From Prauserella cavernicola (GTDB taxonomy: Bacteria > Actinomycetota > Actinomycetes > Mycobacteriales > Pseudonocardiaceae), in the NCBI RefSeq assembly GCF_016595675.1, contig NZ_JAENJH010000002.1, forward strand, positions 744,001 through 808,000: a stretch of 64,000 bases of DNA, in the 5' to 3' direction. Position 1 is the first letter of the stretch, and every line of letters starts with the position of its first letter. A program made the position numbers and the translations under genes. Positions 15,220 through 19,207 of this stretch are shown one piece after another. The notes under the pieces were generated by a model. It did not search any database and was not told the DNA's origin. It saw only the letters and a program-made list of their open reading frames with translations.

Positions 15220-15262
15220 CCCAGATCACTACGCTGGCGTGCTTTTCACGAAAGGGCTTTCG

Positions 15263-15844
15263 ATGTCCGACGAGCTCGACGACGCGCAACTGTCCGCCAA
15301 GCTCGTGAACGGCCTGCGCCCCACCCGGGTCACGCTCGCCGACCACGACCCCGCGTGGCCTGCCAGGTTCGAGGCCCGCGCCTCCGAACTGCGCTCGATC
15401 CTCGGCGAGCGGGCGAGGCTGATCGAGCACATCGGCTCCACGTCGGTACCCGGACTCGCGGCGAAGCCGATCATCGACATCGTGGTGGGCATCGACGACC
15501 CGGACGACGAGGCGGCCTACCTGCGCGACCTCGAAGCGGCGGGCTACGACCCGCGGGTGCGCGAACCGGGCCACCGCTGCCTGCGGGCGGGCGAGCCGGA
15601 CGAGCCGGTGAACCTGCACTGCTACCCGCCTGACGACGTCGAGGTGCGCCGCTATCTCGCCTTCCGCGACCGCCTCCGCGCCAACGATGCGGACCGCGAG
15701 CTCTACGAGGCCACCAAACGAAAACTGGCCGAACGCGAATGGGCGGACATCAACTACTACGCGGAGGCGAAACGCCCGGTGATCTTCGAGATCCTGGCGA
15801 GGGCGGGCTGGGTCGAACCAGTCCGAAGTGGACCAACCAACTGA
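15263..15844 (+). CDS. GrpB (UPF0157) family protein
   Basis: 193 residues. The signature of this nucleotidyltransferase-fold family is clear: V-x-L-x-D-H-D-P-A-W-P-A-R-F-E, I-E-H-I-G-S-T-S-V-P-G-L-A-A-K-P-I-I-D-I-V-V-G and a central H-L/N-L-H-x-Y. The GSTSVPG plus KPIID strings correspond to the GS-DxD elements of polymerase-beta-like enzymes. In other bacteria the domain is sometimes fused to dephospho-CoA kinase. AAAGGG precedes ATG 15263. Function unproven. Confidence 0.88.
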   Translation: MSDELDDAQLSAKLVNGLRPTRVTLADHDPAWPARFEARASELRSILGERARLIEHIGSTSVPGLAAKPIIDIVVGIDDPDDEAAYLRDLEAAGYDPRVREPGHRCLRAGEPDEPVNLHCYPPDDVEVRRYLAFRDRLRANDADRELYEATKRKLAEREWADINYYAEAKRPVIFEILARAGWVEPVRSGPTN

Positions 15845-16778: not shown

Positions 16779-16820
16779 GAGCGGATGACGGGAATCGAAC
16801 CCGCGTTCTCAGCTTGGGAA
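16779..16820. repeat. Left attachment repeat: displaced 3' segment of tRNA-Gly
   Basis: 42 bases identical to 19136-19177, corresponding to the 3' part of tRNA-Gly (T arm, acceptor 3' strand and anticodon arm up to the anticodon). Beyond the 42 bases the sequence diverges from the tRNA, so this copy lacks the 5' half. This is the pattern left when a tyrosine integrase inserts into a tRNA 3' end and restores the gene at the other junction. Confidence 0.9.
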
Positions 16821-16908
16821 CCAGCGTGATCATGCTGGAAAGTAGCCCTGAGCTGCGGGCGCGGGTGTGCGCAGGGTACCGCTGGTGACCGTAGTTGACC
16901 GGCCTTAG

Positions 16909-16928
16909 TGGCACGCTAATGGCATGCG
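16909..16928. repeat. Left 20-bp subterminal repeat (candidate integrase arm site)
   Basis: TGGCACGCTAATGGCATGCG matches 18 of 20 bases of the site at 19043-19062 in direct orientation. It begins 88 bases inside the left attachment repeat. Each copy contains two tandem TGGCA units, as arm-type binding sites of tyrosine integrases often do. Confidence 0.5.
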
Positions 16929-17050
16929 CTGTCAGGGGCGACCAATCGACCTTGGTTACGAATCGATGTCGGCTGCCCGCTCTGAGTAACACGCCGACTT
17001 GCATGACGACTCTCCTCACGTCAAGTAGATCTTCATCGTCGGAGGGACCG

Positions 17051-17524
17051 ATGCTCGGAGCTGGTGGGGTTCTTCCGCCGGGCAAACATGTCGTCACCAT
17101 TGACGAGTTCCACACGCACTTTGTCGATGCGTTCGGCGACTCGACGAGTCGTAAGAGGCTGTTTGTGCGTTGGCAGAGGCACCGGGAGGCGCTGAGCAGT
17201 GTGTTGCCTATCCACTCGCAGTGGATCAACGGCAGCTACGTGACCAGTAAAATCAACCCTGGTGATGTCGATGTTGTGACGTTGTTCGATGGCGAAGCGT
17301 TCGATGGGCTGGCTCCGGGCTTGCAGCAGATGGTGGGTGCCATGTTGGCCGGGAAACAGACCAAGCACGTCTGGGGCATCGACTCGTATGCGCTGCCGAT
17401 CTACCCGGATGGGCATAGCCTTGCCCCTGAGACGTTGAAAGCGAAGGATCATTGGGACTGGTTCTGGCAGCGAATTAAGGACGTCGAGGGCGCTGAAAAG
17501 GGCTACTTGGAGGTCATGGCATGA
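17051..17524 (+). CDS. Minimal nucleotidyltransferase-like protein (island cargo gene 1)
   Basis: 157 residues from ATG 17051, with GGAGGG five bases upstream. The polymerase-beta-type nucleotidyltransferase signature is visible: Gly61-Ser62 in INGSYVTSK, then Asp72 and Asp74 in PGDVDVV, with Asp111 in HVWGIDSY as a candidate third metal-binding carboxylate. It resembles the DUF6932-type or MNT-type proteins that occur in two-gene mobile modules. No membrane segment is seen. The stop overlaps the start of the next gene by ATGA, so the two products are probably made in fixed ratio. Codon use is A/T-richer than the host. The exact activity (AMPylation, nucleotide-tail addition or none) is unknown. 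Confidence 0.78.
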   Translation: MLGAGGVLPPGKHVVTIDEFHTHFVDAFGDSTSRKRLFVRWQRHREALSSVLPIHSQWINGSYVTSKINPGDVDVVTLFDGEAFDGLAPGLQQMVGAMLAGKQTKHVWGIDSYALPIYPDGHSLAPETLKAKDHWDWFWQRIKDVEGAEKGYLEVMA

Positions 17525-18489
17525 GGTCGCGAGCAGCTCTGCGCGCTGACCTGGTGCGTCTTGAGCGCACCCTCTCGGCCCTCCAGCCTGCCTCGTCGAG
17601 TCCAGCCGTTGCGCTGTTGCGCTCTGGTATCGAAGATGTTCGCGACGATCTGGCGTCTGACCTGGCTGTCGCCGAGCGCACGCGACTAGAGGTGACCCTA
17701 GACGGCGCGGCAGTGAGCGGATACGAGATTCGTGTTGATGCCTTGACCAGGATCCTTCACAGCCTGCAGGAAGCCGTGGCCGCGATCGGGCAAGCGCTTG
17801 TCGGCAAGGCGACGAGTCGGTCTTCTATCCCCGCGGCGTTGCGTGATCAGACTGCTCTTAGCCTTACGGCTGTTTTTCCTGGGTCGTTTGGTGCAGTCTT
17901 GCAGGGCCCATCTGCGAGGCCTCGGCAAGATTCCTTCTTCGATCGCGAAGACGGCGATGGGCCGTCACCCCTCCTCGATCAGTCGTTGGACAAGATGCTG
18001 ACGTTGATTGATTTGGCAGCCACCAACCCGGAGGACGATTCCTCGATTGTTGAAGAGGTACTTCCTCTTGGTGGGCGAGCATTTAAGCACATCAACAACC
18101 TTTCAACTGCGATCGTTGATGAACAGATAAGTGCCCAGTTGAGCTGGACGGCGCCCACTGGTCAGAGCCGTGACACGTTGTTTACTCGAACCGCAGCGCG
18201 GCGACTCGGTGACGTTCTGAGCCGTAACAGGGTGACTGAGGAAGAAGTAATCCTTGAAGGGGCTCTCGGAACGGTTAGCAATATTCGAAATCGAGTTGAA
18301 CTGGACACTGGTGACGGAGTCATTCAAGCTCGCGTTGTGGACGAGCTAGTACCACGGCTCGGCGACTTCTACAGTCACCGCGTGAGAGGCTTGTTCGAGG
18401 TCAGTGTTGCCCGTTCGTTGGCGACTGGGCGCGAGACCCGTGTCTACAGCCTTGTGGACCTGGAGCGTCTTGATGCGCCCAGGGAGTAG
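17521..18489 (+). CDS. Unrecognised partner of the nucleotidyltransferase-like protein (island cargo gene 2)
   Basis: 322 residues, starting inside the stop of cargo gene 1 (ATGA). I do not recognise the family. The N-terminal ~50 residues are helical and heptad-like (LRADLVRLERTLSAL, RSGIEDVRDDLASDLAVAERT). A central region carries helices (ALTRILHSLQEAVAAIGQAL), then hydrophobic strands (LSLTAVFPGSFGAVLQ). The C-terminal third is alpha/beta with acidic loops (REDGDGPSP, TNPEDDSS) and ends in a strand-rich part (EEVILEGALGTVSNIRNRVEL). No transmembrane helix, nuclease or P-loop motif is seen. Its coupling to the nucleotidyltransferase-like gene argues that the two work together, as effector with modifier or as a toxin and its neutraliser. 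Confidence 0.72.
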   Translation: MRSRAALRADLVRLERTLSALQPASSSPAVALLRSGIEDVRDDLASDLAVAERTRLEVTLDGAAVSGYEIRVDALTRILHSLQEAVAAIGQALVGKATSRSSIPAALRDQTALSLTAVFPGSFGAVLQGPSARPRQDSFFDREDGDGPSPLLDQSLDKMLTLIDLAATNPEDDSSIVEEVLPLGGRAFKHINNLSTAIVDEQISAQLSWTAPTGQSRDTLFTRTAARRLGDVLSRNRVTEEEVILEGALGTVSNIRNRVELDTGDGVIQARVVDELVPRLGDFYSHRVRGLFEVSVARSLATGRETRVYSLVDLERLDAPRE

Positions 18490-18672
18490 CTCCTAATCTC
18501 CCCGTCCCCTTCGCCCTTGCTGATCCGTTGCGTCGAGGCGGTCGTGTCAAGGGTGAGCGCAGCTCATCGCGTAGCGACGCCGTTAGGCGCCCTTGATGCG
18601 GGCGGCTCGGCGTAAGACGATCACCGGGCGAGAAGGGGACTTCCTAGGTGACGCGTTGGTGCCAAGGGCGTC

Positions 18673-18714
18673 GCTGGTCAAGGGCGGCGCGCTTGCGCGC
18701 CGCCCTTGACCAGC
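18673..18714. repeat. Perfect 19-bp hairpin with adjoining palindrome
   Basis: A 19-bp perfect stem beginning GCTGGTCAAGGGCGGCGCG closes a CTTG loop (18692-18695). A second palindrome, TGGTCAACTTGACCA, follows at 18715-18729, repeating the GGTCAA/TTGACC unit. It could terminate the cargo operon 180 bases upstream, although no T tract follows. It abuts the point where integrase homology begins, so it may mark a deletion endpoint. Confidence 0.75.
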
Positions 18715-18730
18715 TGGTCAACTTGACCAG

Positions 18731-19042
18731 CGGGTCAAGTGGACCAAGGTCGTCGCGGACATGGGGCTCGCTGGGCTCCACTTCCACGACCTCCGGCACG
18801 CCGGGAGCATCTGGGCGTCCAAGGCTGGGACGTCGACCAAGGACCTGATGGCGCGGATGGGCCACGACGACATGCGTGCCGCGTTGATCTATCAGCGGGC
18901 TACGAGCGATGCCGACGAGCGAATCGCGGATCGGTTGTCGGAGCTGGTGGATAAGCACCGCGACGGCGTGGCGGACACCACGGACGGCGACGAGGACGAG
19001 CCTGATGACGGCGATTCCGGGCAACCGGTTCCGGTCGGCTAA
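18731..19042 (+). pseudogene. Tyrosine recombinase/integrase, C-terminal remnant
   Basis: About 103 codons of a tyrosine integrase. The catalytic box II is present: Arg in LHFHDLRHAG, His in MGHDD and the nucleophilic Tyr in ALIYQRAT. Homology starts with V-K-W-T-K-V-V-A-D-M-G-L, so the N-terminal arm-binding and core-binding domains and the first catalytic Arg are missing. The frame is closed by a TGA just upstream, inside the hairpin region, and the first ATG (18761) has no ribosome site. The acidic tail (TTDGDEDEPDDGDSG) is typical of actinobacterial integrases. It lies next to the tRNA-proximal end, as expected for the integrase of such an element. Confidence 0.87.
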
Positions 19043-19062
19043 TGGCACGTTAATGGCACGCG
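19043..19062. repeat. Right 20-bp subterminal repeat (candidate integrase arm site)
   Basis: TGGCACGTTAATGGCACGCG, beginning one base after the integrase stop and ending 73 bases inside the right attachment repeat. It is 18/20 identical to 16909-16928. Confidence 0.5.
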
Positions 19063-19085
19063 AGCCAAGTTGATCCCGAAACGAC

Positions 19086-19128
19086 GAAGACCCAGGTCCG
19101 AAGTGGACACCTTCTGACCTGGGCCTTC
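19086..19128. terminator. Hairpin downstream of tRNA-Gly
   Basis: A 13-bp stem with one mismatch (GAAGACCCAGGTC against GACCTGGGCCTTC) and a 17-base loop. It lies nine bases from the 3' end of tRNA-Gly on the minus strand and is followed there by TCGTCGTTTCG. It appears to have come with the element and to replace the original terminator, now at 16725-16755. Confidence 0.6.
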
Positions 19129-19135
19129 GATACGA

Positions 19136-19177
19136 GAGCGGATGACGGGAATCGAACCCGCGTTCTCAGCTTGGGAA
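19136..19177. repeat. Right attachment repeat inside the intact tRNA-Gly
   Basis: 42 bases identical to 16779-16820. They cover the 3' end of the tRNA gene up to the anticodon loop. Because the tRNA stays complete here, integration at this end was functionally silent. Confidence 0.9.
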
Positions 19178-19207
19178 GCTGATGTTCTACCATTGAACTA
19201 CATCCGC
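19137..19207 (-). tRNA. tRNA-Gly (anticodon CCC)
   Basis: 71 nt on the minus strand without an encoded CCA. The acceptor stem GCGGATG pairs with CATCCGC, the D arm is GTTC/GAAC, and the anticodon stem TCAGC/GCTGA encloses the loop TTCCCAA with anticodon CCC. The T arm carries the usual GTTCGATTC loop sequence. Its 3' end serves as attachment site of the adjacent element. Confidence 0.96.

Follow-up and report, generated by a model that had tools for sequence, protein, structure and literature searches.

A candidate PDC-M63 gene pair in a tRNA-Gly element of Prauserella cavernicola and the sequence relationship of its larger protein to partners of PIN-domain proteins

Introduction

The 64,000-nt stretch of Prauserella cavernicola DNA analysed here (contig NZ_JAENJH010000002.1, positions 744,001 to 808,000; hereafter the window) carries, beside a tRNA gene, two overlapping genes for a shorter and a longer protein, A and B. 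What kind of module these genes form, and what it may do, is the question raised by this locus. A sequence-only reading had described A as nucleotidyltransferase-like and B as a partner of no assignable family, had likened the pair to defence or toxin-antitoxin modules such as MNT-HEPN and AbiE, and had put it forward as a candidate for an undescribed system. Loci compared with the window are designated by numbers with the prefix L.

Results and discussion

The element at tRNA-Gly

Both open reading frames drawn by the sequence-only reading are present (Table 1), on the same strand and with a 4-nt overlap (ATGA, 17521-17524). Its tRNA-associated element is borne out by the perfect 42-nt repeat, whose right copy lies inside tRNA-Gly, and its remark on codons unlike those of the host by a third-position GC content of 0.73 in A and 0.60 in B, against 0.84 for the integrase remnant and a range of 0.80-0.95 among the seven ORFs measured in the flanks. 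This remnant matches Pfam Phage_integrase (E 1.7e-5; 25.1 bits, below the cut-off of 27.1) and phrog_1 (E 3.5e-11).

Table 1. Features of the tRNA-Gly element and its gene pair (window positions)
Feature	Position	Strand	Remarks
att-type direct repeat, left element end (partial tRNA-Gly copy)	16779-16820		42 nt, 100% identical to 19136-19177
decayed pSAM2-like integrative element at tRNA-Gly	16779-19135		ends and integrase 3' part match the element of congener G731
cargo slot	16925-18496	+	without blastn match in four occupied same-site relatives
gene A	17051-17524	+	157 aa; DUF6932 / PDC-M63A; motif G61-S62, D72, D74, D111
gene B	17521-18489	+	322 aa; PDC-M63B; residues ~47-296 align with PIN-linked family
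palindrome, perfect	18673-18714		20-nt arms; at point of ~1.8-kb absence relative to the G731 element
integrase C-terminal remnant	18761-19042	+	93 aa; Phage_integrase and phrog_1 matches
tRNA-Gly (CCC), integration site	19136-19207	-	ARAGORN; right repeat 19136-19177 inside

The tRNA-Gly site was sought in 20 relatives and in the host's own genome, and was read out in six of these relatives, which were selected by their matches. It is occupied, with two repeat copies, in four of these (L164-L167), and holds one copy in the other two (L168, L169); in L168 it is empty, because the left-flank match ends ~160 nt from the single copy. In the congener G731 (L164), the right element end shares 98% identity with the window across 418 nt, an integrase ORF of 405 aa runs into this end, and a RepSA match is found, for which reasons the element is called pSAM2-like. 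The blastn pieces from the four occupied relatives comprise only element positions 1-146 and ~1719 onward, leaving 147-~1718, with A and B, unmatched. Compared with L164, the window element is without ~1.8 kb that includes most of the integrase, a gap that coincides with the palindrome. Because the cargo finds no match in the relatives and the integrase is largely missing, A and B look, by sequence comparison, like exchangeable cargo in a decayed element. The pair fills the cargo slot, as the sequence-only reading had it, but is not all that the element holds, given the integrase remnant. A search for promoters and terminators in the element gave nothing above chance.

The tRNA-Gly(CCC) gene is an integration hotspot in the relatives (L164-L169), with elements that differ in content and size, and the cargo slot of the G731 element may encode a putative protein of 305 aa that matches DUF5677 below threshold (E 0.0068). 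The flanking ORF at 15239-15844, which we take to be GrpB-like, also has a GS-type nucleotidyltransferase-like motif, probably by coincidence beside the element.

Identity of the pair

A matches Pfam DUF6932 (PF22014; E 2.5e-28, 99.7 bits against a cut-off of 27), described by Pfam as a family of unknown function, as well as PADLOC PDC-M63A (E 3.3e-17) and phrog_9194. For B, the PADLOC match is to PDC-M63B (E 1.4e-11); phage families without known function match it weakly, and no Pfam or NCBIfam model does. The view that no family could be assigned is thereby superseded for both proteins, A having a Pfam and a PADLOC family and B a PADLOC family. The PDC entries of PADLOC are candidate defence systems, and the matches to PDC-M63A and PDC-M63B rule out an undescribed system, PDC-M63 having been tested once, reportedly without effect (see below). 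By these matches and the adjacency of its genes, the window pair is a PDC-M63 candidate module, a divergent actinobacterial member in which the features tested revealed no difference from PDC-M63. Among solved structures no convincing relative was found for the A or the B profile, and a single-protein scan with window A found no viral relatives.

Pairing of A and B across loci

B follows A at 107 of 110 loci, and at 71 of 74 after merging of A's at ≥90% identity, counts by cluster being given as well because many loci are related; the coupling proposed by the sequence-only reading is thus a property of the family. Since the loci were found through A alone, the presence of B is not built into the set, which comprises 30 of 47 matches from the search of the host's order, two further matches, phage and plasmid records, and additional loci, with L001 and L003 being the same place. 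Two of the 107 pairs are broken, L106 by a split in A and L097 by one in B. The three loci without B are L100, which is cut by a contig end, and L074 and L083, in which no B was found within 1.6 kb after A.

The matched part of B starts at most 140 nt from the A stop in 104 of 106 accepted pairs, whatever the start codon, the exceptions being the pairs with a broken B or A (L097 and L106). With start codons picked by a rule that favours the 4-nt overlap, B starts at most 30 nt from the A stop in 70 of 71 clusters (the remaining one, L010, being a start mis-call), with an overlap of 4 nt in 43. Members of the pair occur in actinobacteria, γ-proteobacteria, Bacteroidetes, Nitrospirae, Desulfoferrobacter and a Parcubacteria bin, while DUF6932 is present in 43 of 397 genomes of the host's order.

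An enrichment of the pairs at tRNA sites, for which the sequence-only reading had suggested a survey, turned out to be weak: a tRNA gene lies within ~2.5 kb of the pair at 5/47 loci scanned (L070, L102, L105, L127, L129), and a long flanking repeat (44 nt, in L105) was found at one of seven tRNA-bearing loci tested. A general tRNA association of the family was accordingly set aside.

The nucleotidyltransferase motif of A

Nucleotidyltransferases of the pol-β type carry the pattern hG[GS]-x(9-13)-[DE]h[DE]h. Window A fits this pattern with G61-S62, nine residues, and D72-V-D74-V, except that the residue preceding G61 is N, which is not hydrophobic. The metal-site residues listed by the sequence-only reading (Gly61, Ser62, Asp72, Asp74 and, as a possibility, Asp111) are all present, and the third acidic residue, D111, is kept in ≥90% of 20 aligned A's. 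In the A tree, G[GS] and the three acidic residues are kept in 55 of 76 rows, window A included, with Ser62 in 47 of these. The best local match of the A profile to members of PF01909/PF18765 in hhalign pairs the GS and DxD motifs without reaching significance (P 0.046), and four mycobacterial prophage records label A as a nucleotidyltransferase. The motif, Asp111 and the depositors' labels suggest that A is a nucleotidyltransferase-like protein.

The motif is lost in part of the family. In a clade of ten actinobacterial A's, N72 and S111 replace two of the acids, and active-site loss is found in at least three lineages, namely L021, this clade, and a fixed chromosomal lineage represented by a second A-B pair in the host's own genome (L123). 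The second pair, with A and B 32% and 25% identical to those of the window, adjoins ectoine-type genes, and its lineage (L111-L125) has the same neighbours at 15 of 15 loci, which were chosen from the host's family; S62 is lost in 21 of 23 distinct sequences of the fixed lineage, and D72 in 9 of 23. From gene order and alignment, a module that is mobile in other lineages is fixed in this one and its active site altered, raising the question of why one lineage became a fixed chromosomal pair. Its conserved chromosomal position, unlike that of a mobile defence gene, speaks against such a role there. The sequence-only reading had named the occurrence of homologues mostly apart in core genomes as evidence against its proposal; they are not mostly apart, though in this one lineage the pair is chromosomally conserved. 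By the same comparisons the window pair is intact and mobile, but belongs to a family with altered and fixed forms as well, which argues against catalysis and defence as the role of every member; catalysis is, to judge by these residues, not kept in every A lineage.

Active-site loss in three or more lineages is what would be expected if A sensed nucleotides without catalysis throughout the family and the activity lay in B, a reading made distinctly improbable by the retention of G[GS] and the three acids in the 55 rows and by the nature of B: when 48 B's were compared with known families, 26 families matched, nearly all of them weakly, none being a convincing enzyme family.

Phage, prophage and plasmid settings

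In a set of 36 phage-type loci of our own selection (from phages and viral contigs, plus a few records of bacteria or plasmids), a same-strand repressor-like gene lies upstream of the pair at 31 loci, or in 13 of 17 clusters, a count that is partly circular because the eight query proteins are upstream genes of the same set; at L039, L060, L065, L066 and L069 no such gene was matched. Independently of these queries, Escherichia, Erwinia and mycobacterial phage records name cI, CI or 'immunity repressor' upstream, and among 38 upstream genes of mixed origin Pfam HTH_3 is found in 13 and Peptidase_S24 in nine. The pair is present in 96 of 5,426 complete E. coli genomes, on chromosomes only and always at ≥99% identity, in a search blind to distant forms; at the E. 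coli locus read out, its neighbours are an XRE-family regulator on one side and, on the other, kil/gam-type genes of a lambda-like prophage. Two plasmids of actinobacteria carry the pair as well, and there the annotation shows no repressor immediately upstream. Its place in temperate phages is that of lambda rexA/rexB, directly downstream of cI. Homology of the pair to RexA was considered and was not found by sequence, RexA giving no significant match to the A and B profiles (hhalign P 0.44 and 0.47).

A deletion of PDC-M63AB from a prophage of E. coli NILS69 reportedly gave no evidence of defence with 10 phages, the authors noting the limited diversity of their own phages (PMC12409345). The literature searched, with subscription papers and preprints outside its range, offers no mechanism for the PDC-M63 pair in the text covered (including PMC12429752, PMC12894663, PMC8092301). 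As the sole printed test found was negative and used a limited phage set, PDC-M63 appears worth re-testing.

The negative deletion test, the repressor-linked place in phages and the fixed chromosomal lineage with its altered active site would all suit a pair with no part in defence, serving instead as a lysogeny or regulatory accessory (adjusting the repressor switch, for example), of which one actinobacterial family would keep a version domesticated for housekeeping. We regard this as rather unlikely, in view of the presence of the pair in another type of element (that of the window) and on the two plasmids lacking an annotated upstream repressor, and of the relationship of B to partners of PIN proteins, described below.

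The wider family of B

A profile of B matched in 33 of 397 genomes of the host's order, 12 of them without a DUF6932 match. The profile is insensitive: it matched nothing in 22 of the 43 genomes with DUF6932, yet B is present in each of the 12 among them for which A loci were examined. Among the 12 B-like loci without A, seven have a PIN gene directly downstream, PIN proteins being of the RNA-cutting type; one has PDC-M32A/M32B, and four have neither. In L138, one of these four, a fragment resembling A lies upstream (E 2.6e-4), so that this locus probably represents an M63 pair that has been broken. The PIN gene overlaps the B-like gene by 4 nt in six loci and by 8 nt in one. Three of the seven PIN genes were checked with Pfam, six were used to build a model, and the seventh was found by this model; the alignment of the six PIN proteins has four invariant acidic columns. 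The linked-PIN model had no match in any M63 locus examined, including that of the window.

A profile of the PIN-linked B-like proteins matched in eight of 346 genomes of the phylum, including the window's own and one with a known locus; two further PIN pairs were found (L146, L148), and four genomes showed no PIN. The same profile finds window B at E 2.6e-8, and hhalign aligns M63B with the PIN-linked alignment over 220 columns (probability 98.5, E 1.5e-15). PADLOC gave no or weak matches for the five PIN-type B-like proteins and three PIN proteins scanned, and tblastn with the PIN-linked B of L137 found no phage or plasmid relatives. Altogether, B-like proteins were seen directly upstream of PIN genes in L133, L134, L136, L137, L142, L143, L144, L146 and L148.

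The large partner of the PIN-linked pairs and of PDC-M32 therefore has a long stretch in common with window B, whereas the small partner is a PIN protein or M32B, encoded downstream, in place of the upstream A of M63. With the chosen starts, the shared stretch of M63B is preceded by a median of 45 residues (83 sequences), whereas the PIN-type B-like proteins have a shorter N-terminal part and a C-terminal tail, with LAxxQG[VI] in 6 of 8. In both types the extra piece faces the partner gene. The new observation is thus that B belongs, by profile comparison, to an unannotated family in which the remaining members have PIN-domain proteins or PDC-M32B as partners; the copies of Pfam and PADLOC searched do not unite M63B with M32A and the PIN-linked proteins.

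A tentative reading, which we hold at somewhat less than even odds, is that M63B, M32A and the PIN-linked proteins form one control platform, into which unrelated small effectors (a nucleotidyltransferase, a PIN nuclease, M32B) plug, with an effector-contacting extension facing the effector gene, the nucleotidyltransferase being the effector in M63 and the whole set being defence or toxin-antitoxin modules. If B is such a platform, the function of three unsolved two-gene modules may be solvable jointly, with the PIN-linked form and its predictable chemistry as an entry point to the sensing of infection by B. The shared partner family is of more than routine interest in turning an unsolved pair into a testable scheme.

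A proposed role for the pair

For the pair itself, we propose that A is a nucleotidyltransferase-like effector and B its two-part control partner, acting in defence upon phage infection, with a probability of about 0.42. The assignment of roles follows from one large partner being common to unrelated small proteins, one of them a PIN protein with its acids kept. In the proposed mechanism, B would bind A and hold it inactive in the healthy cell, and infection by a foreign phage would release A or switch it on. Active A would then modify some molecule of the host or the phage by nucleotide transfer, with arrest of growth or of phage production as the result. A pair in a prophage may be expressed together with the repressor, and would protect the lysogen from other phages. 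The tight pairing, the motif of A, the repressor-side place, the mobile copy in the window and the relation of B to PIN partners are features of the sequences themselves; what we infer is that A is the effector and is bound by B, that the pair is expressed in the lysogen and that it has a defensive function, along with the trigger, the target and the nucleotide.

The best-known precedent is the opposite arrangement, in which an antitoxin modifies a toxic partner. MNT-HEPN and AbiE likewise have a nucleotidyltransferase-type motif in a two-gene overlapping unit, and the A-then-B overlap with a minimal motif resembles that kind, so that B might by analogy be a toxin, inactivated by nucleotides that A adds to it. 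Window B has no Pfam family, however, and no HEPN or AbiE match was found by sequence for the 48 B's among the best 25 of the 26 families; moreover, the pairing of B's relatives with PIN proteins suggests a shared partner and not a toxin, and loss of catalysis in A with B kept would leave B uncontrolled. An antitoxin A acting on a toxic B is thus unlikely, with less support here than A as effector. The likeness to toxin-antitoxin or defence modules seen by the sequence-only reading is, by sequence kinship, strengthened through the PIN-linked relatives of B, but does not extend to membership of MNT-HEPN or AbiE, for which no partner was detected.

Neighbouring genes

A PADLOC survey of 296 of 328 selected neighbour genes gave scattered matches at 1e-10, almost all of one gene per model, the survey being uncontrolled, several models broad, and the gene calls rough. 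Beside the B-like genes of L135, L142 and L143 lie genes that we take to be Mrr-like, and beside that of L136 one that is presumably type I specificity-like. In a Geodermatophilus element at tRNA-Lys (L105, 7258-12869), a 44-nt repeat is accompanied by the pair, an integrase and an OGG-like glycosylase gene, making this element a counterpart of the window layout with a full integrase.
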